Below are positions 3,795 through 29,473 of a stretch of 29,556 nt of DNA, piece after piece. How positions within the stretch are numbered: position 1 is the stretch's first letter; each line of letters starts with the position of its first letter. The DNA is taken from positions 1 to 29,556 of IMG/VR virus record IMGVR_UViG_3300025449_000040, one strand, 5' to 3'. Made by a program: the position numbers and the translations under genes. The notes beneath the pieces were generated by a model. It ran no database searches. It had not been told where the DNA came from and was given only the letters and a program-made list of their open reading frames with translations. The DNA comes from a virus.

Positions 3795-5062
3795 GCAGGT
3801 ATATATTTTTCGGGTTGAATTTGTTTACCTTGTTTTGTATTCCCTGTTCGGGCTTTACGAACTTTGTCCATCATACTGTAAAGATGCCTAGCACCAGCAT
3901 CAGTAGACCCATTACCAAGATGAGACACAACATCAGCAGGAACAACAAACTCTCCATCAGCCAATCTTGCGGGTTGTTTATCGGCAATACTAGCGGGTAT
4001 ATGATCTGACATACCGTCGCCCGGGCCTTTAAGTAGTCGTCCACCATCTGAATAGCCCCCTAGATTATAAGTTCCATCAGTATGTCCACCACTTGATAAA
4101 GCCATAATTCCACCTTCAGCCGCCATGGTAGTAGGTAAACTAACTCCATATTGAGATGCCAAAGCAGCTAGTTGTGCGCCTGTACTATTATTAGAAGTAT
4201 TTGGCGTGTAAATATTTAAACCGTTACCAGTAGATTCTCCCGCTGCAGTTATACCCGTTGAACCACCACTTGCCATATTTTGTTCTAACGCACCAGATAA
4301 TGGCGTGTTGCTAGGTTGATATCCTGCCATTTGCATAGCAGAAGTAGGCATTTGAGTTGGTGTGTTATATCCGTTGTAATTGATTTGACTCATTGGATAC
4401 TGCTGTCCAGGCATACCGCCAACTGCTAATGAAGTTATACCACCTTCTGCCATTGGACGGACGGGCTGATATTGTGGAGATAAAGTCCTACCTAAACCCA
4501 CCTGTTGCGCAGTTTGAGGTTGGTATGGGGACATAAAGTTAGCTTTAAATGCATTTGCTTTCATTAAAGCCGCCAAGCCAGCAATACCACCAACAGCAAC
4601 TTTTTGTGCTGTGCTCATGCTGTTCCAGGTACTCATTAATTTACTGCCTATACCTGATAATGGGTTTGCATCTGTACCAGCTTGACCAAGTTCCCCCGCT
4701 ATAGTTCCAGCAGATATAGTAGAAGGAGGACCCATAAATTCAGAACCAGGCAGTCCAGCAGTGCTAGGGTTAAATTGACTTGCTTGGTTAGCAGCAGTAA
4801 CTGCTTGTTCCGCCACTTTTGGCGCAATACCCTGCGGCGTTCCCGGCCCTTGCGGTATGTTAGATAAGTTTTGTGGTAAATTAGCAGACTCGGGAGACGC
4901 TAAATCCATAGGACTTACTCCGTAGCTAGATAGTGCTCCACCACCAATAGCATTTGCTCCGCCCATGCCGGCATCAGCGGCTAAGTCCATGCCACTAACA
5001 GCCCCTGCATCAGCGCCGGCTTCGCTTAATAAAGCTGCTTCTCCAATTCCACCATCTGCCAT
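3791..5062 (-). CDS. Virion protein with GG-motifs and C-terminal 'DGEFVVPADVV' segment (423 aa)
   Basis: The N-terminal third is rich in Ala and Gly. One hydrophobic segment (KVAVGGIAGLAALMKA, about residue 155-170) could be a membrane segment. 'AEGGITSLAVGG' (about 205) and 'AAEGGIMALSSGG' (about 315) precede a C-terminal block holding GDGMSDHIPASI, ARLADGEFVVPADVVSHLG and a basic tail. From memory this C-terminal block is widespread in uncharacterised phage virion proteins, often near tail or internal proteins. Its function is unknown to me. It lies between a 112-aa protein and the GNAT-like gene, overlapping the latter by 4 bases. The GG-containing segments resemble those in the 1007-aa protein and several small proteins of this window. 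Confidence 0.7.
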   Translation of the reverse strand: MADGGIGEAALLSEAGADAGAVSGMDLAADAGMGGANAIGGGALSSYGVSPMDLASPESANLPQNLSNIPQGPGTPQGIAPKVAEQAVTAANQASQFNPSTAGLPGSEFMGPPSTISAGTIAGELGQAGTDANPLSGIGSKLMSTWNSMSTAQKVAVGGIAGLAALMKANAFKANFMSPYQPQTAQQVGLGRTLSPQYQPVRPMAEGGITSLAVGGMPGQQYPMSQINYNGYNTPTQMPTSAMQMAGYQPSNTPLSGALEQNMASGGSTGITAAGESTGNGLNIYTPNTSNNSTGAQLAALASQYGVSLPTTMAAEGGIMALSSGGHTDGTYNLGGYSDGGRLLKGPGDGMSDHIPASIADKQPARLADGEFVVPADVVSHLGNGSTDAGARHLYSMMDKVRKARTGNTKQGKQIQPEKYIPA

Positions 5063-11355: not shown

Positions 11356-12510
11356 TTAAGCAAATGCTGCCATACTATACGCTGCTGGAACTTGTACGTA
11401 TGCTCCAGTAACTCCCGCATTTCCAACTTGTACAGAACTTGTACTTGGGTTTTGAAACAAACCAATTGCAGGGGTATTATTAATACCATAACCTGATGCC
11501 ACTACAGCAGGGGTACCAGATAAACTTGTTAAAAAAGTAACTGTATATGTAGCGCTAGAAACTGAAACGCTAGCCACATTAAGTGTATTTATGATAGTCC
11601 CTGAAGAATCAAAGTATGCCCATGCTCTTAGCGTATTATTTCCAGAAGGTCCAGTTGGCCCAGTTGGTCCAGTCGGCCCGGTAGGACCTGTTCCACCAGG
11701 AGAACCTGTAGGTCCAGTAGGTCCAGGAGAACCTGTTGGTCCAGTAGGTCCAGTAGGTCCAGTAGGTCCAGTAGGTCCAGTAGGGCCTGATATACCCACA
11801 GACCAAGTTCCATCACCTCTTAAGAAATTTCCACTAGACGGCGTACCCGTTACAACTGGAATAGCTGTTGAGCTGCTAACCAATGTTCCAGATATTGGTA
11901 ATGTTACGTTTGTAGCCGCTGTTGCTGTTAATGTTGTGTTGTATGCACCAGAAGTGGTTAAGTTACCACCTAAAGTAATTGTTTTAGATCCATTGTTTAC
12001 CCCTGTTCCGCCGTAAGTAGGGCCAATAATTCCAGCATTCCAAGTGCCTGTCGTGACCGTTCCAAGCGTTATGGTACCAGGTAAATAATTACTTAGAGTA
12101 TAAAAACCTGCGCCATTTCCTGTAACGTTTGACGCGTCGCAAAAACATTGCGTTGTTGTATTAGCAACTACGTTAAAAGATTGTGAACCACCCGTTGCGG
12201 ACATGGTTACTGTTTGTCCAGTTAAATTAACAACCGTATAAAGCTTATTTACTAAAGGCGCAACGATTGTTACTGTAGAGCTAGGCGTACCTGTAAACAC
12301 CAAAACAGCATTACGCTGATCGTCTAATGTGCCGTTAAAGTTAGTAAGTGTGTATGTGGTTAAACCAGTTAAACTAACCGCCCCCACGCCGGTAATAGCT
12401 TGCTCCAGTAAAGTACCTATGTTGGTATTTGTAGTTTGACCCCATGTACCGGACTGATCTCCCGTGCCCATTAAAGCTAGTTTTAGAGATGTTGAGTATG
12501 TAGTTGACAT
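11356..12510 (-). CDS. Tail fibre with collagen-like segment (384 aa)
   Basis: The N-terminal region ([20 protein letters not shown], about residues 14-33) is typical of phage tail fibre proteins; 'LNDYE'-type or repeat beta segments follow (about 40-200). About residues 240-289 are some 16 Gly-X-Y triplets, mostly GPT, which should form a collagen-like trimeric rod. The C-terminal ~95 residues (from [13 protein letters not shown]) form a beta-rich tip with 'YVQVPAAYS', plausibly the receptor-binding head. Strong site and ATG at 12510. The gene follows the 20-residue-repeat protein and precedes two small accessory genes. Trimeric fibre role is inferred from sequence style. Confidence 0.82.
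11644..11790 (-). repeat. Tandem 9-base repeats encoding Gly-Pro-Thr triplets
   Basis: On the plus strand the unit is close to 'ccagtaggt', repeated with third-base drift across the collagen-like part of the fibre gene. The copies at 11741-11790 are nearly identical, so copy number could change by slippage or recombination, altering rod length. Confidence 0.85.
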
Positions 12511-15559: not shown

Positions 15560-15982
15560 TTATGCTACCTTTGCTTCTAGAGCTGTTACTTTTGCTGATA
15601 GTTCTTTTCTTCTTGTTGGAACTTTTAATACTCTGTAAGCATGAAGTCCATTTTCAGACCTTGTGACCCATTCAAGATTATCTACATTGTTATTATGTTT
15701 GTTGCCATCTTTATGATTAACTTGTGGTTTGTTTGATTCATTTTCAATAAACGCTCTTGCAACCAATCTATGCACACTTTGATTGCTTTTTACACCATCA
15801 ATACAAAAAGAAACAGTTAAATAACCACTTTTACTTTTGCCTGCTTTCAAAATAGTTGATGGGTTAACTTTTGAACCCCCACAATAATGATTAACCATTC
15901 TTTCAATAGAACGAACATTTCCTAAATTACTAACTTCGTAATGCGTTTCAAATCCTGCACATGGATGCCATATTTCGTTCAT
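15560..15982 (-). CDS. NUMOD4/HNH homing endonuclease with fibre-derived C-terminus
   Basis: 140 aa. The N-terminus 'IWHPCAGFETHYEVSNLGNV' followed by RS is a NUMOD4-type DNA-binding motif; 'VHRLVARAF' (70-78), 'VNHKDGN' (88-94) and 'NNVDNLEWVT' (98-107) form the HNH nuclease core, with His90 and Asp92 in place. The last residues 'ELSAKVTALEAKV' (127-139) match the end of the upstream fibre 'ELSAQVTALQAKV', so the gene seems to have landed at the fibre's 3' end and carries a copied coiled-coil tail. The ATG overlaps the fibre stop (ATGA). Base content looks AT-rich. Confidence 0.9.
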   Translation of the reverse strand: MNEIWHPCAGFETHYEVSNLGNVRSIERMVNHYCGGSKVNPSTILKAGKSKSGYLTVSFCIDGVKSNQSVHRLVARAFIENESNKPQVNHKDGNKHNNNVDNLEWVTRSENGLHAYRVLKVPTRRKELSAKVTALEAKVA

Positions 15983-18256: not shown

Positions 18257-18685
18257 TTAAGAAATGGTAATAACCGCAGTAGTTGATGTTGCGGCAGGCC
18301 AGGTTATGGTGAAATTGTTCATGGTAATGTCGTTACCAAAGTTTAAAACGAAAACAGAATTACCCGTAGTTGCATTGTAAATTAAAGCTCCTCTTGCGGT
18401 AATAGTTGCGCCTGTCCAGGTCACATTATTAAAGTAAGGAAAAGCTACGTTGTTAGCCAAATCCTGTCCCGGATTAGCAGATATCGTAATGACATTACCA
18501 CCTGCCGTATACCCATTAGCCACAACCTCTGCCGTTGTACCAGAATAAGTCGCTGTCGTATTGTTAAGATTGCTCAAAGCAGTATACAAAGCCACCTTAT
18601 AGGTATACGGAGAAGTCGTTGTGAAGTTAACCAGACCGTTCAAGCAGTCTGATTTAAACTGGGTAGTCTGGGTTTGGATGATCAT
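18257..18685 (-). CDS. Phage virion protein, beta-rich (142 aa)
   Basis: The N-terminus 'FKSDCLNGLVNFTTTSPYTY' and internal 'VALYTALSNLNNTTATYSGT' continue to 'GYTAGGNVITI'. From memory this style is found in small tail-associated proteins next to the connector. The start overlaps the 316-aa adaptor stop by 4 bases. Likely part of the tail-fibre attachment; role not established. Confidence 0.65.
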   Translation of the reverse strand: MIIQTQTTQFKSDCLNGLVNFTTTSPYTYKVALYTALSNLNNTTATYSGTTAEVVANGYTAGGNVITISANPGQDLANNVAFPYFNNVTWTGATITARGALIYNATTGNSVFVLNFGNDITMNNFTITWPAATSTTAVITIS

Positions 18686-19632
18686 ACTGCTGCATTACCT
18701 CTAATATTAGTATTCAGCTTAGTTTGACCATCCCTATACGCATCACCTCTTTCAAGTCCATCTCCGAGGCGTTTAGCAAGCATAAGCGCTTCTGAGTACT
18801 TATCTTCATAGTACTTAACTAAATCTTGCTCACCCTTCATAAACAACATGGCTTCGCGCATAGATCCATAAAGAAGTACTGGATCAAAGTTATCGCCCAA
18901 CCAGCTTGTTCCATTTGAGTTGTTAATCGTATTGACATTGATAGCAAAGCCCGATCCTGATCCGCCAAGGCTAGATGCAGATACACCTAAAGAATCTCCA
19001 ACAGCATAAAAATTGCCACCGTTTTGAAGTGTAAAGGAAGTTACTGTTCCGCTAGATCCCACTAAAAAGTCGGCATAAGCACTCTGCCCAGACCCACCGG
19101 TCAAAGGAATATTTTGATACAAACCAGGAGCATAACCAAATCCTGAATTGGTAACGTTGGTTACAGAAGTAATAATACCTTGAACTATTGAAGGGGGGTA
19201 AAAGAAATAATGTAACTCTACGTTATAAGATTGATCCGGCGTAGGCCCAAGAATACAAGACAATTCATTTTGATTATTGTATTGAGGTCCAAAGACTGCA
19301 TAGTATTTAGGCGTTCCTTGCGCCGTTGGATTTGGATATGCCTCTCGAATAAAGTTTACATCCTTATTAAGAAGGTAGGTAAACGGCACAGTCGTATAGT
19401 CTGATGTGTATATAGCTATGGAATATGTTGATAGCCAATCTATCGGTAAAGATAAATAAGAATTACTTGCGGTCAAAGTACCGGTAACATTCTTACGAAG
19501 TGACGGGAAATTAATTGTGTTGTATATACGTTCTTCGGCTTGCTGTACAAATACTGGAATGTTTGCAAGAAACAAAGACTCCGTATTCTCAGCATACGCT
19601 TGGATTGTGTTGTACAACGTTTCGTAATTCAC
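18682..19632 (-). CDS. Tail adaptor-like protein (T7 gp11-type), with inserted beta module (316 aa)
   Basis: GTG start at 19632, overlapping the previous stop as GTGA. The N-terminal helix 'LFLANIPVFVQQAEERIYNT' and segment 'SYLSLPIDWLSTYSI', and the C-terminal helices 'DPVLLYGSMREAMLFMKGEQ' with 'YYEDKYSEALMLAKRL', are hallmarks of the podovirus adaptor between portal and nozzle. About residues 152-239 are a Gly/Ser-rich beta insert (YAPGLYQNIPLTGGSGQSAY onward) that splits these conserved halves. A second adaptor-like protein lies at 20582-21514. Confidence 0.78.
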   Translation of the reverse strand: MNYETLYNTIQAYAENTESLFLANIPVFVQQAEERIYNTINFPSLRKNVTGTLTASNSYLSLPIDWLSTYSIAIYTSDYTTVPFTYLLNKDVNFIREAYPNPTAQGTPKYYAVFGPQYNNQNELSCILGPTPDQSYNVELHYFFYPPSIVQGIITSVTNVTNSGFGYAPGLYQNIPLTGGSGQSAYADFLVGSSGTVTSFTLQNGGNFYAVGDSLGVSASSLGGSGSGFAINVNTINNSNGTSWLGDNFDPVLLYGSMREAMLFMKGEQDLVKYYEDKYSEALMLAKRLGDGLERGDAYRDGQTKLNTNIRGNAAV

Positions 19633-19910
19633 GCCATTGGTCCTCTTGCAATTCTACCTTTTGTAGCCGCGCCGTTACCACGAGTTTCTATCCCAGTGGA
19701 TTTAGGACCATTTGTAATGTTGCCTAAACTTACGCGTCTTGCGGGCATGCCCCCAGGAGTAGACTCGTCTGCACGCATTGTATTTGGGTCAGTAGCATAA
19801 TGAACAGCCTCTTGTCCATTAATAACATTACCTTTCATGTTATGTGCTTGCGCATATAACGAAGCTGGACCTACTTCTTTGCCGCCTTTTTTCATGCTGA
19901 ATTTAGCCAT
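19629..19910 (-). CDS. Small basic KKGG protein (93 aa)
   Basis: Begins 'MAKFSMKKGGKEVGPASLYA', contains a polar middle and ends in a Gly/Arg/Lys-rich tail (GNGAATKGRIARG). It is strongly basic. The ATG overlaps the preceding stop by one base. One of several small Lys/Gly proteins around the tail adaptors; DNA binding, scaffolding and processing are all possible and none is shown. Confidence 0.6.
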   Translation of the reverse strand: MAKFSMKKGGKEVGPASLYAQAHNMKGNVINGQEAVHYATDPNTMRADESTPGGMPARRVSLGNITNGPKSTGIETRGNGAATKGRIARGPMA

Positions 19911-20146
19911 TATTTGCCCCTTGAAGAAGACTTCTGGTTAGTAACACGAGCCATATTACGACCCATGCTTCTAAGATTAGACTGAGTTACACCACCTTTA
20001 GCCATTTTCTTTGTAGGCATACCGCCTTTTTTAAGGACGATTTTAGTGTGCTTACCAGGATGTTCTTGAGCATCGTGCTCTTTAAAAGCTTTTTTGATCA
20101 TTGCTTTATCTTGAGCAATGTCGTTATCCATTTCTTTTTTAGCCAT
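19910..20146 (-). CDS. Small basic KKGG protein (78 aa)
   Basis: A helical N-terminal part (MAKKEMDNDIAQDKAMIKKA) is followed by 'VLKKGGMPTKKMAKGG' and a Ser/Arg/Lys-rich end with 'SMGRNMARV'. Very basic. I recall related peptides ('DIAQDKAMIKKA', 'GRNMARV') in environmental phages, unnamed. Placed after the zinc-ribbon protein; the stop overlaps the next ATG. Confidence 0.6.
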   Translation of the reverse strand: MAKKEMDNDIAQDKAMIKKAFKEHDAQEHPGKHTKIVLKKGGMPTKKMAKGGVTQSNLRSMGRNMARVTNQKSSSRGK

Positions 20147-20155
20147 AATTTACTC

Positions 20156-20578
20156 CTACGTTATTGTGACTGAATTTACCGTGCCTTTTGCAACCAAGGC
20201 ATTTGGCGTTAGGCTTCTATCAAAACCACTGGAACCACCAACCGGCATCCAGCCCCATTGAAACACTCGACTTCCAGTTTCAGGATATCCGTTCTCATCA
20301 AGTGAATTGTCAACCCCGTTTTGAATCTGCAGTCCACTACTTCCAGAACCATAATAGCTGATATCAGGTCTTGGCTCACGCACTGCTTGCGGATCATTTA
20401 CAGGATACAAACCTAATTGTAATTGCGGATGATCTGGATCCCAACACTCAGGGCATACTTTGATGCTAACTTGTTTAGTCTTAATCGTCAACTTACGAAG
20501 TTCGACAAGTTTGTACCGCTGACCGCACCGGTCGCATTCGGCAATCGCATACTTACCGGAAGAATACTTACTAGGCAT
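20156..20578 (-). CDS. Zinc-ribbon virion-associated protein (140 aa)
   Basis: 'CDRCGQRY' and 'CPECWDPDH' (Cys15/18 and Cys42/45 approximately) form a four-cysteine zinc ribbon at the N-terminus, followed by 'QLQLGLYPVNDPQAVREPRP' and a Gly/Ser/Trp-rich C-terminal half (VFQWGWMPVGG). I recall short zinc-ribbon proteins with this 'PVNDPQAVREPRPD'-like text beside adaptor genes in phages. A structural or assembly role is likely. Confidence 0.7.
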   Translation of the reverse strand: MPSKYSSGKYAIAECDRCGQRYKLVELRKLTIKTKQVSIKVCPECWDPDHPQLQLGLYPVNDPQAVREPRPDISYYGSGSSGLQIQNGVDNSLDENGYPETGSRVFQWGWMPVGGSSGFDRSLTPNALVAKGTVNSVTIT

Positions 20579-20581
20579 CCT

Positions 20582-21514
20582 TTACCTCGAATAGAAAATG
20601 TTCCTTGGAACCCACCGGATCGGAGCAGTCTCACGGTCTTCCTGGGCAGCCAAGTTAAACTGATCCTCGTAGTCCTGTTTCAAAAACAAAACGCGCTCTG
20701 GCATGACTTCTGGCTTCTTAACACTAAGAAAATAAGAAAGTCCAGCCACAAAGCAGTTAATAAATCTGAACGGAATATCTTGAACGTTGACGCCGCCCCC
20801 TGCGTCTTGTATGCGCCTCATGCGCCAGTAAACGAGTGTATAGGGGCCTCCACCTGAGTCCGGACAAGGCCAAACGGTCAGGTTAGGGAGGTATTGCTCA
20901 ATTATCGCGGCCCCTGCGGTGTGCGCTACAGCAGTTGTGCCGTTTTGTCCACGATAACAGTTTACGATCTGATTACCGCTGATATTAGCGTAACCAATAA
21001 TTTCATTATCAATCTGGATATACCCAGAACTACGCAGGTTCTGCGTTGTACTTAAAGTCAGCGTCGTATCTGTGGCTAAACAAGTAGACGCAAGAGTAAT
21101 CGTCGTTGGGTTGGCGTTACCTGTTTGGCGGTTAAACCAGACTTGAATAGGGCGCCCCGTCGTTAACTTGTTAGGTATTGTGGAATAGGTACTTTCACTA
21201 ATACGGCTTAAATTAATATCCGCCTGATTAGAGGTGCTGGTATTGCTTGTACGGGTAACTAAATCAAGGATATCAATGGTGTCATTAGGCACGTTGTAAA
21301 ACGCTTGCCCAGTAACCAAAGGGATCACACACTCCTCAACAGTCCAAAGATTAATACCTCGATTAGCCCATTCAATTGTCATCAAATTGATAGACCGACG
21401 TGCAGTACGCAAGTCATATCCAGAACGCATCTGGAGTCCACAGCGCTCAAAAGCATCCTCGACCAGTTCGGTTAGGTCTAAGTTAAATGATGCGGTTCCA
21501 GATGTTTGAGCCAT
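20582..21514 (-). CDS. Head-tail connector / adaptor (P22 gp4-like), with inserted module (310 aa)
   Basis: The N-terminus 'DLTELVEDAFERCGLQMRSG' and 'ARRSINLMTIEWANRGINLW' is a strong match in pattern to P22 gp4-like adaptors; 'LTVWPCPD' and 'YWRMRRIQDAG' with the C-terminal 'FLKQDYEDQFNLAAQEDRE' complete the fold. About residues 135-205 carry a module with 'SSGYIQIDNEIIGYANISGN' and 'CYRGQNGTTAVAHTAGA', a unit I recognise as a recurrent insert in phage virion proteins. Adaptor function is confident. Confidence 0.82.
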   Translation of the reverse strand: MAQTSGTASFNLDLTELVEDAFERCGLQMRSGYDLRTARRSINLMTIEWANRGINLWTVEECVIPLVTGQAFYNVPNDTIDILDLVTRTSNTSTSNQADINLSRISESTYSTIPNKLTTGRPIQVWFNRQTGNANPTTITLASTCLATDTTLTLSTTQNLRSSGYIQIDNEIIGYANISGNQIVNCYRGQNGTTAVAHTAGAAIIEQYLPNLTVWPCPDSGGGPYTLVYWRMRRIQDAGGGVNVQDIPFRFINCFVAGLSYFLSVKKPEVMPERVLFLKQDYEDQFNLAAQEDRETAPIRWVPRNIFYSR

Positions 21515-21516
21515 TA

Positions 21517-21837
21517 TTAATTAGCTTTGTTAGCTGCAAATTGTTTTTGTGCGTCTGTCTGTGGGGCTTCAATAGGTACGGTCGCAGGAGTCACAGACAT
21601 AGTAATTACGTTCGTATCAGCAGGGGCGGCTATAACAACAGGGGCGGCTATAACAACAGGAGCTTCAATAACAGGCGCAGCAGGTTGTGCAATCTTTAGA
21701 TGCTCTTCAATCTTATCAATAAATGCTTGAGTTTCTTTAGTAACTGCACCGTGCGCAGATTCTTGAACCTGAGCCATATGCTTAACAAGAGCATATAAGT
21801 GCTCAACATTCTCTTCAATATGCTTTAGTAAACTCAT
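21517..21837 (-). CDS. Coiled-coil protein with Ala/Pro/Val linker (106 aa)
   Basis: Residues 1-50 form a helix (EENVEHLYALVKHMAQVQES), then a Pro/Ala/Val-rich linker in which 'PVVIAA' is repeated through an 18-base tandem duplication. The end is polar (DAQKQFAANKAN). The start overlaps the previous stop (ATGA). No known function. Confidence 0.6.
   Translation of the reverse strand: MSLLKHIEENVEHLYALVKHMAQVQESAHGAVTKETQAFIDKIEEHLKIAQPAAPVIEAPVVIAAPVVIAAPADTNVITMSVTPATVPIEAPQTDAQKQFAANKAN
21623..21658 (-). repeat. Two perfect 18-base tandem copies
   Basis: The plus-strand unit 'aggggcggctataacaac' occurs at 21623-21640 and 21641-21658, with a decayed third copy just after. It encodes the duplicated 'PVVIAA' of the linker protein. 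Confidence 0.9.
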
Positions 21838-22073
21838 TTATTTCTCCTAGTTTTAGCTGATTCAATAAAATCTTGATCTGTAGGTGCGCCCTTTTGACCA
21901 GGCTTCCTCATCTTTGCTCCGCGCTTTTGCTTAGCATGAATATTGGCATAAAGTCCAACAGGTCCACCTTTTTTGTAGACCTCAACGTCATTTGGATTGT
22001 CCTTACGAACAACCGTTTTAGCTTCAGGCATTTTGGAAGGGCGGATTGCGCCCATTCCCCGACTCGCCATCAT
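21834..22073 (-). CDS. Small basic KKGG protein (79 aa)
   Basis: Basic protein with 'VYKKGGPVGLYANIHAKQKR' and a Lys/Arg-rich C-terminus (KPGQKGAPTDQDFIESA). 'GPVGLYANIHAKQKR' resembles 'GPASLYAQAHN' of the 93-aa protein, so the two may be distant paralogues. Coupled on both sides by ATGA overlaps. Confidence 0.6.
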   Translation of the reverse strand: MMASRGMGAIRPSKMPEAKTVVRKDNPNDVEVYKKGGPVGLYANIHAKQKRGAKMRKPGQKGAPTDQDFIESAKTRRNK

Positions 22074-22264
22074 TTTCTTTTAGCCATTCCACCGCCGCAC
22101 ATGGCTTTAACATGCTCGTGGTGCTTCATGTGACCAGCAGAGTGTTCACCATACATTTTGTGGTGATGAACGTGACCGCCTTCTTCCATCTTCTCCATCA
22201 TATGCACGTTGTGTGTATGAGCTGGAGCTGCTTCTTTCATTAATGGGGGATGATCATTTTTCAT
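22070..22264 (-). CDS. Histidine-rich small protein (64 aa)
   Basis: Thirteen of 64 residues are His, in clusters such as 'HTHNVH', 'HVHHHKM' and 'HMKHHEH', with Met and one Cys, and a 'CGGGMAKRK' end. Metal binding (Zn, Ni or Cu) is a natural inference, not shown. The start is an ATG with AGGAC nearby; the stop is coupled to the next gene. Neighbours are small Lys/Gly-rich proteins. Confidence 0.6.
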   Translation of the reverse strand: MKNDHPPLMKEAAPAHTHNVHMMEKMEEGGHVHHHKMYGEHSAGHMKHHEHVKAMCGGGMAKRK

Positions 22265-22273
22265 AACTAGTCC

Positions 22274-22678
22274 TTAACAAAATTTACCACGGGTCTTGCC
22301 TTTTTGAGCAATACCATCTGCACGAGCTGAGGCTGTACCGCCAGAAGCCATCTTCTTAACAGTCTTACCACCTTTTTTCATACCAGTAGTACTACCCGCC
22401 ATTTTCTCTTCGATATCTCTAGTGTGCCCACGCTTTTGAAGTTTAGACTCACCAAATTTACCATGCTTGTTAGATCCCTTTTCTACATCTTCCGACATAC
22501 TGCGGGTACCCATTGTTTCTTTTGCTGCCATATTTCCACCTTTAGAAAATTTCTTGCCTTTGTCGGCTTGACTAAAATCTTCCCCAACATTTTTGGGGAC
22601 TCCTACTTTCTTGGCGAACGCTGGGTTATGGGCCACCGCCTCCATGAAATTGTGCTGTTTTTTACTGCTACTTGGCAT
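22274..22678 (-). CDS. Basic Lys/Gly-rich protein (134 aa)
   Basis: The open frame reaches 22834, but the ATG at 22678 has GGAG 7 bases upstream and avoids 150 bases of overlap with the coiled-coil membrane gene. The product starts MPSSSKKQHNFMEAVAHNPA and contains 'FAKKVGVPKNVGEDF', 'FSKGGNMAAKE', 'MKKGGKTVKKMASGG' and a Gly/Lys/Arg tail ending KFC. 'FMEAVAHNPAFAKKVGVPKN' is recognisable from small phage proteins of unknown role. Strongly basic. Confidence 0.6.
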   Translation of the reverse strand: MPSSSKKQHNFMEAVAHNPAFAKKVGVPKNVGEDFSQADKGKKFSKGGNMAAKETMGTRSMSEDVEKGSNKHGKFGESKLQKRGHTRDIEEKMAGSTTGMKKGGKTVKKMASGGTASARADGIAQKGKTRGKFC

Positions 22679-22913
22679 TCTTAATCTCCATAAGCCTATC
22701 CAGTTTTTCGTCCAACCTATCAAGACGGTCCAAAACCCTAGTGATGTCTGCATGGACTTCTTGCTTTGTAACGTACTCTTTAGCAATCTCTTCTCTGGTT
22801 CTGTTAAGAAGGATGGTAACTCTTTGCAGTTCATTAAATTTCTCCTTAAGGAAAAACCCTATGATCGCGACAAAAAGCGATAGTGCGGAGTTCCAAAGTA
22901 TCATAACGTCCAT
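22668..22913 (-). CDS. Small membrane-anchored coiled-coil protein (81 aa)
   Basis: An N-terminal membrane segment (MILWNSALSLFVAIIGFFL) is followed by a charged helix (about 25-81) with heptad-like 'ITRVLDRLDRLDEKLDRLME'. It follows the endonuclease VII gene directly (TAAATG) and overlaps the next start by 11 bases. Comparable single-TM coiled-coil proteins are frequent in environmental phages. Function unknown. Confidence 0.6.
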   Translation of the reverse strand: MDVMILWNSALSLFVAIIGFFLKEKFNELQRVTILLNRTREEIAKEYVTKQEVHADITRVLDRLDRLDEKLDRLMEIKNAK

Positions 22914-23333
22914 TTAGATCTTTTCCCTAATTTCTTTATATTTATCCCACTTAGGTGAATCCACAGAAGCGTATAAATATTGTGCAGCGAATTCAAGTAG
23001 TGTAGGGTCGTCTCTAAAATGTCCTAAACCGCGGTTGCAATGATTACATAACATTCCACGAATTTTACCGGTTATGTGGTCATGGTCAACGACTAGTTTA
23101 GTTTCGTCTCCACATATAACACACTCTTTTGTTGTTGCTTTAAGTTCTTTTAGGGCTTCGTCTGAAATAACAGATCTATGTTTACCTCGGCAATTTTCAT
23201 TTCGATAAGAAGCACGGCAAGTACGGCACCAACTATCAAAACCTAATTTAGTTTTATTGTGTAATGGAAAATTAACCGCATCTAACGGTTTTTCTACTTT
23301 ACACTTGGTGCAGCACTTACTTAACAATTCCAT
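22914..23333 (-). CDS. Recombination endonuclease VII-like HNH nuclease (139 aa)
   Basis: 'CVICG' (71-75), 'VDHDHITGKIRGMLCNHCN' (82-100) and 'GLGHFRDD' are the diagnostic endonuclease VII motif, with zinc cysteines 71, 74, 96 and 99 and the catalytic His in DHDH. An extra N-terminal pair of CxxC motifs (8/11, 36/39) makes a second zinc site. T4 gp49 of this family resolves Holliday junctions and debranches DNA before packaging. Here it sits inside head genes with 13-base overlap at its start; it could be the packaging resolvase or a mobile HNH gene. Confidence 0.85.
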   Translation of the reverse strand: MELLSKCCTKCKVEKPLDAVNFPLHNKTKLGFDSWCRTCRASYRNENCRGKHRSVISDEALKELKATTKECVICGDETKLVVDHDHITGKIRGMLCNHCNRGLGHFRDDPTLLEFAAQYLYASVDSPKWDKYKEIREKI

Positions 23334-23572
23334 GCTTTTAAAGACAGCGCTTTACGCGTTGGCTTTCCTTTTTCATCTTTCATTGGACCAGGCATACCGC
23401 TCATTCTGGCGCAAAAAGATTTACGACGGCCTTCATCCTTTTTTGTCTTTGGATGTGGAGCTGGAGGTTTAAGGTTCATACCTTCTTTCTTAGCAGAAGC
23501 TCGTCCCTTAGCATTTAAACCGCCATTTGGGTTTTTACCCTCTTTACGTTGCCATGCTGGGGACTTAGCCAT
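23321..23572 (-). CDS. Small basic Lys/Gly/Pro-rich protein (83 aa)
   Basis: Contains 'WQRKEGKNPNGGLNAKGRAS', 'RKSFCARMSGMPGPMKDE' and ends 'LSLKAWNC'. I recall a phage family of unknown function with 'NPxGGLNxKGR' and 'KSFCARM' motifs, possibly DUF6321, but could not check. It is short, basic and probably virion-associated. The ATG overlaps the 258-aa gene stop by one base. Confidence 0.65.
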   Translation of the reverse strand: MAKSPAWQRKEGKNPNGGLNAKGRASAKKEGMNLKPPAPHPKTKKDEGRRKSFCARMSGMPGPMKDEKGKPTRKALSLKAWNC

Positions 23573-25118: not shown

Positions 25119-25205
25119 TTATGCAAAAGTTACCTTGTTAATCGTTGCATCGTCTGCTGGGCCAGTGGCAACAAGGTGGAATTCCCAGATAGCCAAATAA
25201 TACAC
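25119..25205 (-). pseudogene. Beheaded gene remnant (28 codons) after the HNH endonuclease
   Basis: Immediately after the endonuclease stop, sharing one base, a frame with a GTG codon reads 'VYYLAIWEFHLVATGPADDA' and ends 'TINKVTFA' before TAA. It is protein-like and looks like the C-terminal end of a larger virion protein whose front is gone. Alternatively it is a functional tiny gene. A ribosome site for GTG is not clear. Confidence 0.5.
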
Positions 25206-25795
25206 TATTTTTGGACGGAGTCAACAAGTTTATTGGACTTTTTAAGATTTTCTGCGCGTGACATTATTTGTAAATTCCAAGGTACATGTAAACCGCAAAC
25301 CGTTTCCCCCCTCAATGGTACTATATGGTCTACGACATAAGGCGTTCCTGTAATGCGCGTAGCAGTCATAGCGTCTATGTACAGCTGTTTTATTTGTTGT
25401 TTTTGCTCAGAAGAAAGCCATGTGGGCGTAGCTTGTTTGTGTTTATCCCTACGATGTTTAGTGCTTGCTTTTACTTCGTCGGGGTGCTTTTCTTTCCATG
25501 CTTTTTTATATTGTTGCCGTTGTTCGTTAGGACGCGCCATAGCCTTTAATTTGACTATTTCTTTATTGCGCTCATAGTATTCTTTTTTAGCTTGTTGTCC
25601 TGCATCGGACTGGTTGTACTGCTTAAAATACTCTGCACGGGTTTCATTTCCTTTAGTCCATTCAACCTTTAAACATTCCGTGCATGAGCCTTTAGTTTTG
25701 CGTAAAGCTATATGCCCATGTTTGCAGGGTTGCCCAGTGAAATAGTACTTACTGCCGGTTTTCTTTGCTTCTTCTCTTGTGGTTGGGTAGTCCAT
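25205..25795 (-). CDS. HNH homing endonuclease (196 aa)
   Basis: The N-terminal 'YYFTGQPCKHGH' with 'SCTECL' (Cys24, His26/28, Cys38, Cys41) is a zinc-finger-like unit typical of phage HNH endonucleases; a long Lys/Arg/Gln helix (about 60-125) follows. The HNH core is 'VDHIVPLRG' (155-163) and 'GLHVPWNLQIMSRAENLKKS' (168-187). ATG with AGGAG 5 bases upstream. It lies between the capsid gene terminator and a gene remnant, has its own extended -10 promoter, and appears to be a recent insertion. Confidence 0.9.
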   Translation of the reverse strand: MDYPTTREEAKKTGSKYYFTGQPCKHGHIALRKTKGSCTECLKVEWTKGNETRAEYFKQYNQSDAGQQAKKEYYERNKEIVKLKAMARPNEQRQQYKKAWKEKHPDEVKASTKHRRDKHKQATPTWLSSEQKQQIKQLYIDAMTATRITGTPYVVDHIVPLRGETVCGLHVPWNLQIMSRAENLKKSNKLVDSVQK

Positions 25796-25877: not shown

Positions 25878-26780
25878 TTAATATGAGCCATAAATACCAA
25901 GTGGATCAGAATAGCCAAAGCTATAACGCTCACGGGATTTATAACGAACGTTTCCAGTGTCAAAGTCACCATCCATGGAGTTTTGCAGCGGTGTACGAAC
26001 GAAGTGCTTGAGACCGTTAGGTACATCAGTTGTCAAGAACCAAGCGTTAGGTGCTGTCAAGAAGTGGTTAATTGTGTAACCTTCTGGGACAGAACCGTTG
26101 TTCTTGATTGCGTTGATGTCGTTGTTGTTTGTACCAACACGGAGTTCTGTCTCGAGTAAACGAGTTGCAACGAACTGGAGTGCTGGAGGAACAATCAACT
26201 TCTTAGGTTTAGCAGCGATCAAAAGTCCGCGCTCGTCTGTCCAAGCAGCGATTTGAATAACAGCATTTTCAAGGGCTGTTTCGTTCAAGTCAGCAGCAGT
26301 AGAAGGAGTGTTGGAATTTGTACCACCGTTAATTAGCGGGTGAGCTGAGTTCAATAAAGAAACGCCATCACCGCCGGTATAAGCGCCGTTAAATGCGTTG
26401 TTCAATATAGCAGCAGCTTTCACTTGCTTGGTATATGCCATAGCGCGAGCCAAGCCCTTTGTATAACGTGCAGACAAAGAGTCATACAAGTTATCCTCAA
26501 TCGCCTCTTCTGTTAAGGAGAAGCCAAGAGCAATAGTCTCGTGGTTATAGCGAGCTGTCCATGCTTCTTGCGCATTGTCATAAGCGATGGCATTGCCCTC
26601 GGCCTTAACAGGTGCTGCTGAGAATCCAGACAGTTTTGTTTCTTCTTCGAATGAACGCTCAGAGGTCTCTGTTTCATAGATCTCTTTGTGCTCTTCGCCG
26701 TATCTTGCATACTCTAATCCGAACAATGCGTTCAGTCCAGGGAGCAACTCTTTCAATAGTTGTGCGCGTGAAATAGCCAT
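25878..26780 (-). CDS. Major capsid protein, HK97-like fold
   Basis: 300 aa. 'AISRAQLLKELLPGLNALFG' opens the protein; 'YDSLSARYTKGLARAMAYTK' is the spine-helix region, 'LLNSAHPLINGG' and 'KPKKLIVPPALQFVATRLLE' with 'ELRVGTNNNDINAI' lead to 'FLTAPNAWFLTTDVP' and a C-terminal 'YKSRERYSFGYSDPLGIYGS'. The last parts are characteristic of major heads in Mu gpT-like and environmental phage families. It follows scaffold and two head genes and precedes a strong terminator. No long delta domain is seen; the separate scaffold fits. Confidence 0.88.
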   Translation of the reverse strand: MAISRAQLLKELLPGLNALFGLEYARYGEEHKEIYETETSERSFEEETKLSGFSAAPVKAEGNAIAYDNAQEAWTARYNHETIALGFSLTEEAIEDNLYDSLSARYTKGLARAMAYTKQVKAAAILNNAFNGAYTGGDGVSLLNSAHPLINGGTNSNTPSTAADLNETALENAVIQIAAWTDERGLLIAAKPKKLIVPPALQFVATRLLETELRVGTNNNDINAIKNNGSVPEGYTINHFLTAPNAWFLTTDVPNGLKHFVRTPLQNSMDGDFDTGNVRYKSRERYSFGYSDPLGIYGSY

Positions 26781-29071: not shown

Positions 29072-29473
29072 TTATTTACGTCTAATACCACGAGGATCAT
29101 CCACAATCCCTTCGACACTGTCGTCGTTGATCATGCGAAATTCCTTACCATGAATAATTAATCTGCTACCAGAATTAGGTCTAACAAGGACAAAGTCGCC
29201 TTGTTTACACCATGGACCAGATGGGAATCTAGTCTTATCTTGATAACAATCAGGCCCCAAAGAAACTACGAAGAGAACTGTTGTAAGCAACTCCTCATAA
29301 TGTATTGTGGTATCTGCTTTAATTATCCCGCTATCAAACTCTTCTTCAACGTCTGGAATTGCACAAAGAATGTGATATCCAGAGGGCTGTGGGAGTTGTT
29401 TGGCTTTTTCTTCGGCTGGTTTATTCAAGATTGCGCTTAAATCTACTGCCGTGTTTAGGTTAATATCATTCAC
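29072..29473 (-). CDS. GroES-like co-chaperonin (Cpn10)
   Basis: 133 aa with GTG start at 29473. After about 30 extra N-terminal residues, 'SGYHILCAIPDVEEEFDSGI' and 'IKADTT' match the Cpn10 start and mobile loop (Gly-Ile-Ile), and 'VVSLGPD', 'KQGDFVLVRPNSGSRLIIHG' and 'EFRMINDDSVEGIV' match the rest of the barrel. It should bind host GroEL and help fold the major capsid protein, as T4 gp31 does. The position before scaffold and capsid genes supports that. The N-terminal extension is unusual. Confidence 0.85.
   Translation of the reverse strand: MNDINLNTAVDLSAILNKPAEEKAKQLPQPSGYHILCAIPDVEEEFDSGIIKADTTIHYEELLTTVLFVVSLGPDCYQDKTRFPSGPWCKQGDFVLVRPNSGSRLIIHGKEFRMINDDSVEGIVDDPRGIRRK

Follow-up and report, generated by a model that had tools for sequence, protein, structure and literature searches.

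A Gly-Gly motif marks module joints and opens a C-terminal tag on small capsid-linked proteins of aquatic phages, and may serve as a docking peptide

The locus and its recurrent motif

IMG/VR record IMGVR_UViG_3300025449_000040 is a viral DNA of 29,556 nucleotides, analysed here over its whole length (the window), whose structural genes include a cluster of small basic proteins that share a short Lys-Gly-Gly motif. Here we show that the recurrence of this motif is real, that the motif has two contexts, one as a joint between small protein modules and one as the start of a C-terminal tag found on unrelated proteins, and we argue from sequence comparison that it may act as a docking peptide for the assembling phage head. 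The genes of the locus follow the order terminase, portal, scaffold, g278, major capsid protein (MCP), DUF6321 protein, tag genes together with module A, module B, neck protein 1, zn140, p93 and neck protein 2. The MCP (25878-26780; Phage_capsid_4 / Mu gpT) is the upstream border of the cassette, and neck protein 1, an SU10 adaptor (20582-21514; PF24175, supported by synteny), is its downstream border. A second SU10-adaptor-type neck protein (18682-19632) lies just past the cluster, while the first lies inside it.

All the motif-bearing genes, modules and border markers lie on the minus strand, and the strings quoted in a preliminary description of the window were all found at their places. 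The 93-residue protein (19629-19910) carries MKKGGK near its N terminus (19878-19895), and the 78-residue protein (19910-20146) carries LKKGGM (20018-20035) and MAKGGV (19988-20005). In the 79-residue protein (21834-22073), YKKGGPV stands at the start of module B (21957-21977), and the 64-residue His-rich protein (22070-22264) contains MEEGGH (22172-22189). The 134-residue protein (22274-22678) holds FSKGG, a second MKKGGK (22364-22381) and MASGGT; its open reading frame (ORF) is listed as 186 residues, reaching 22834, and we take its start at MPSSSKKQ, position 22678. The related text AEGGI/V recurs in two large proteins, near 4450 and 4120 in a 423-residue protein (MAEGGI, 4436-4453; MAAEGGI, 4106-4126) and near 2030 and 1480 in a 1007-residue protein (AEGGI, 2019-2033; MAAEGGV, 1473-1493). 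These two proteins belong to the late tail/injection region, as do the proteins of Planktothrix phage Pag-Yong1 that contain YAEGG and YADGG, and we suspect that all of them are internal or ejected.

As the proteins of the cluster are rich in Lys and Gly, chance or composition has to be considered as the origin of the motif. In the five motif-bearing small proteins the pattern [hydrophobic]x[KED]GG occurs seven times against 0.29 expected, and none of 2,000 residue shuffles reached that count; when the cluster's nine small proteins are taken together, the seven occurrences compare with 0.40 expected. AEGG is seen four times in the two large proteins (0.10 expected), and the remaining proteins of the window have no motif (1.3 expected). 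Since the pattern used for the shuffles was written post hoc, from proteins already seen, we sought independent evidence in two fairer tests, a positional profile of related loci and a scan that leaves GG unspecified, and both agree. Together with the shuffles, the position-specific profile and the GG-free scan refute an origin by composition, which we regard as having a negligible chance of being correct. The recurring Lys-Gly-Gly text is thus confirmed.

For the profile, 235 viral loci were fetched with three window proteins, and their ORFs were called and sorted into 1,174 clusters. Isolated GG pairs in proteins of 45-200 residues are flanked preferentially by K at -5, M, Y or F at -3 (z score for M, 9.4), A or K at -2, K at -1 (6.1), K, M or S at +1 and V at +2 (7.8), which refines the motif to [MFY]-[AK]-[K/E/S]-G-G-x-[VI]. 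Enrichment of M at -3 extends to proteins longer than 200 residues (z 7.7). In the aligned relatives of the 79-residue protein, the motif mostly reads [YF][AK]xGGx[VI], position -1 being K, E, A, S, G or D, so the lysine is dispensable and the AEGG text in the two large proteins conforms to this motif as well.

A C-terminal tag on unrelated proteins

Beyond what the preliminary description had seen, the motif opens a conserved C-terminal tag. In the 134-residue protein the tag is MASGGTASARADGIAQKGKTRGKFC (22277-22351), and its consensus over about 25 residues is KGGxVSSASxRADG[IC]AxRGKT[RK]G. The C-terminal TRGNGAATKGRIARGPMA of the 93-residue protein (19632-19685), an end that is conserved in the p93 family, looks by eye akin to the tag core.

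IMG/VR was scanned at the DNA level with a pattern for the tag core, RADGxAxxGKT, that left GG unspecified, and this returned at least 120 stretches and 117 new loci. Among the matches listed, 167 of 170 complete tags lie within 25 residues of the stop, GG is found within the preceding 16 residues in 166 of the 167 C-terminal tags, and the 155 bodies fall into 79 families. The total is at least 374 distinct tagged proteins, and grouping the 317 bodies that have 30 or more residues gave at least 98 unrelated families. An alignment of 65 tagged proteins has its invariant columns (G G ... R x D G ... G x T) exclusively within the tag, GG included. The same terminal peptide on non-homologous proteins is what a cargo-loading signal would display. 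Together with the profile of the 1,174 clusters, these observations strongly uphold the earlier proposal of a shared signal among otherwise dissimilar proteins.

When 65 tagged bodies were searched for effector domains with Pfam and PHROG profiles, no credible or common family emerged, and the impression that one body (L253:4606-5214) resembles an ADP-ribosyltransferase was not supported. Searching 50,697 named phages by tblastn with tag peptides and the 93-residue protein gave no match. A divergent tag, YASGGMIGRDGCAKRGRTKGRFI, was later found in the cultured phage Pag-Yong1 by reading the interval between its MCP and adaptor genes, where it ends UMO75986.1 and is followed by a protein with GMKKGGPV (UMO75987.1), so the tblastn result reflects a limit of sensitivity. 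No published description of the tag was found in searches that ran without most subscription journals, and literature searches with the motif strings, DUF6321 and PHIKZ165.1 found nothing relevant; the tag appears to be previously undescribed. Many tagged proteins, L368:5791-6510 and L330:3865-4302 among them, have a second recurring element, K[RK][FY]x[ED]GG, at the N terminus. It may be an acidic form of the motif, in which case tagged proteins would carry EGG in front and KGG at the back.

Selection acts on the peptide and not on the DNA, since the invariant Arg, Gly and Thr of the tag use many synonymous codons. This codon choice rules out a DNA-level signal such as an internal ribosome site or a repeat. 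The first Gly of KGG shuns GGA (1.1%, against 12.7% in KGx and 8.5% in xGG), which we read as avoidance of ribosome binding sites resembling the Shine-Dalgarno sequence AAAGGAGG.

The basic KGG and RGKTRG stretches could alternatively form disordered, RGG-box-like tails that bind DNA or RNA and condense the genome or organise assembly sites. Half of the cluster proteins (5/10) have an isoelectric point above 10, the tag itself is basic, low order is predicted, and clusters of tiny basic proteins are also found in the marine phages HTVC033P and MEP401. We nevertheless consider nucleic-acid binding rather unlikely as the role of the tag: the invariant D and T and the fixed spacing of its core exceed what charge alone would constrain, the EGG and AEGG forms are acidic, and each C terminus bears a single tag with no repeats.

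Module joints and gene neighbourhood

The motif also stands where small modules meet, a second context that the preliminary description had missed. Aligned relatives of the 134-residue protein are conserved at both ends and variable in the middle; the protein consists of module A, KGG linkers and the tag. Module A, MPSSSKKQHNFMEAVAHNPAFAKKVGVPKNVGEDFSQADKGKKFSKGG (22535-22678), ends in FSKGG and belongs to phrog_16759 (E 1.7e-18; residues 53-97 of the 186-residue ORF, or 1-45 of the 134-residue protein). The same family holds phiKZ gp165.1, which is 77% identical to the module A consensus; gp165.1 itself has 58 residues and neither KGG nor tag, and we found no function for it. Module B (GLYANIHAK...KGAPTDQDF; phrog_16028) occupies 21837-21962 of the 79-residue protein. 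Module D is the 83-residue DUF6321 protein (23321-23572; PF19846, E 6e-25, 88.1 bits against a cut-off of 28.5), which lacks KGG and lies in the same cassette; DUF6321 occurs in marine and freshwater phages.

Modules A, B and D are separate genes in the window and form one polypeptide, A-KGG-B-KGG-D, in two related loci (L254 and L255). A third (L253) retains the module-B protein in its front half, which runs right after MYAEGGK into another module, one that the marine phages MEP401 and HTVC033P have too. Comparison of these loci indicates that modules are swapped at the motif. Likewise, FKRGGDV is joined to a DUF6321-like domain in HTVC023P gp43, as read by eye, and modules B and D lie between the scaffold and capsid genes in the T7-like cyanophage S-SBP1 and the pelagiphage HTVC142P. 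A fusion of A-D to a neck protein in a further locus (L259) could be an assembly or deletion artefact and was not used.

AlphaFold (AF2) models of the 134-residue protein place helices at residues 6-17, 19-25 and 29-38, with a block confidence (pLDDT) of 72-81 over residues 1-30 and low confidence elsewhere; in the 79-residue protein helices span 41-50 and 66-78, and residues 31-46, including the motif, score below 50. With low overall template-modelling scores (pTM 0.22-0.24), the two models say only that the motif probably lies outside the folded core. PDB and fold searches with module A gave no match. Some unrelated modules in the tag and DUF6321 families end in Cys (GKxC, WNC, WKC), and these terminal residues could possibly form disulfides or bind metal in the extracellular particle. 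A module-B gene and a portal-like protein are also present in the 39-kb genome of Limnohabitans phage DC33 (PQ492659.1), which is classed as Inoviridae, a label that looks like a taxonomy error.

That modules are exchanged at the motif raises the possibility that GG is only a flexible hinge, where short DNA identity aids shuffling and the tag hitchhikes with bodies that are hypervariable. Such a linker would account for the swaps. It fits poorly with synonymous sites that vary at both motif and tag and with hydrophobic flanks that are kept in families otherwise unlike each other, which together imply that the peptide itself is under selection; we therefore find this explanation improbable.

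The tag is linked to one capsid type, as would be expected of a cargo-loading signal. In loci that contain both markers, the interval between MCP and neck protein 1 accounts for 159 of 161 tags, with as many as four tagged genes in one such interval. As part of these loci was obtained through cassette genes, the linkage is partly built in, and the tag-only scan is the fairer measure: among the matches listed, neck protein 1 is present in 99 of 117 loci. The MCP is the most conserved marker, with a median identity between loci of 86%, against 58% for the portal and 41% for the scaffold protein. The window MCP is 70% identical to that of Pag-Yong1 and 66% to that of Pelagibacter phage HTVC023P, and the lineage is one of abundant uncultured aquatic phages.

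Several other genes of the locus deserve mention. A 133-residue GroES-like co-chaperonin gene (29072-29473; phrog_3188) lies between portal and scaffold, a position kept in the cultured relatives Pag-Yong1, HTVC023P and DSL-LC04. An Endonuclease VII/HNH-type gene with a PF02945 match (22914-23333) sits among the structural genes, as do two others of this type (15560-15982 and 25205-25795), which look like free-standing homing endonucleases. Collagen-like GPTGPTG repeats (11591-12016) occur within a 384-residue putative tail protein. In the window's sister contig (L262:10371-14936), a 1521-residue protein has LPD39 and DarB-like antirestriction PHROG matches; as DarB is packaged and injected in P1, this protein is likely ejected as well.

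Docking, processing and comparison with known systems

The preliminary description had offered a processing site, a docking peptide or a packaging tag as the shared signal. If the motif were a processing site, a phage or host protease would cut at or after GG during maturation and free fused modules or remove the tag. In favour of this, the motif coincides precisely with the boundaries between modules that some phages encode separately and others as fusions, like the cleavage sites of polyproteins, and its conserved hydrophobic positions (-3 and +2) might serve as subsites for a protease. No Peptidase_S78 (PF04586) was found, with controls detected, in six related viral records, including a 63.5-kb sister contig, and one metagenome-assembled genome. 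Pfam and PHROG scans of the terminase, portal, GroES-like, scaffold and MCP-flanking genes, which cover part of the gene content, showed no protease, and a DUF2213 search, whose control gave no signal, was uninformative. The position directly before GG is variable (K, E, S, A or R), and the strongest conservation lies 6-20 residues downstream of GG. No known cleavage consensus fits; that of adenain, (M/I/L)xGG, places the hydrophobic residue closer to GG by one position. Cleavage at the motif is therefore unlikely, and this part of the earlier proposal is left without support.

Docking or packaging fits best with the gene position, the fusion partners and the virion proteomics of related modules. 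Module A forms the N terminus of CBB_322, which was detected in the virion with 30 peptides and 43.57% coverage (PMC5259590). A Shewanella phage has module A fused to a Nudix domain together with a weak DUF2213/head-maturation-protease match, and an alphaproteobacterial contig joins it to a region matching DUF2213. The virion proteome of cyanophage S-CREM2 includes gp111, gp137 and gp160 (PMC10665884). Two QKGGEV motifs (KYQKGGEVK and KLQKGGEVK) are present in gp111, gp137 ends in a DUF6321 domain, and gp160 contains phrog_727/3477 modules.

Based on position, conservation, fusions and mass spectrometry of related modules in virions, we suggest that small capsid-linked proteins carry the motif as a short linear peptide within segments predicted to be disordered, where it would act both as a docking element and as a flexible joint in a modular virion cassette. 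The tag, which the motif opens in its most developed form, would most likely bind one conserved morphogenetic partner. The MCP and its scaffold are the leading candidates, and such binding would draw small basic proteins with diverse, fast-changing bodies into the assembling head. We put the probability that the motif is such a docking or virion-incorporation peptide at roughly 0.5. Several observations weigh against it. We found no virion proteomics for any tagged protein in the literature, and the authors of the S-CREM2 study caution that some proteins were perhaps not separated from virions in purification (PMC10665884). The tag is present in 100 of 110 loci with MCP and neck protein 1 and missing from the other 10. 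No tag was found between MCP and adaptor in cultured HTVC027P and Roseobacter phage CRP-901, and the corresponding interval of Pam1 holds a cement gene only, which means that the tag is unneeded for this particle type.

The cargo-loading peptides of encapsulins are short, conserved C-terminal peptides on unrelated proteins that follow a flexible segment and go with a conserved HK97-fold shell, and the present tag resembles them in its place, its unrelated bodies, the flexible segment before it and the conserved capsid protein. It differs in sequence and in belonging to a tailed phage; the bodies are fast-changing, have no domain that can be recognised and are not known enzymes, and docking to the shell is here a proposal. 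Internal proteins are routed into the prohead by the capsid targeting sequence of T4 and by the head propeptides of the phiKZ/SPN3US type; these signals are N-terminal and removed at defined sites by a prohead protease, whereas the present tag is C-terminal and such a protease was not found.

Other Gly-Gly elements are similar in part. GlyGly-CTERM and other C-terminal sorting signals are likewise recognised as a shared C-terminal block on unrelated proteins; GlyGly-CTERM has a transmembrane helix and a basic cluster after GG, where the tag, as read directly from the sequences, is hydrophilic. The Pfam KGG repeat (YciG/Con-10) has the same letters; a Pfam search with the cluster's motif-bearing proteins gave no family at E<=1. 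Double-glycine leaders of C39 exporters are N-terminal and cut after GG with a variable core, while in tagged proteins it is the C-terminal stretch following GG that is conserved.

More tentatively, it is conceivable that in these phages, as freshwater cousins of HTVC023P-type pelagiphages, the tag is a universal C-terminal address that loads fast-evolving small proteins into the capsid for delivery to the host, a counterpart of encapsulin cargo loading. If the tag is a virion address, several hundred phage genes that are now orphans without a recognisable domain would become predictable virion proteins, the tag would provide a rule for spotting such proteins in metagenomes, and the short peptide could be tried for cargo loading in this capsid type.

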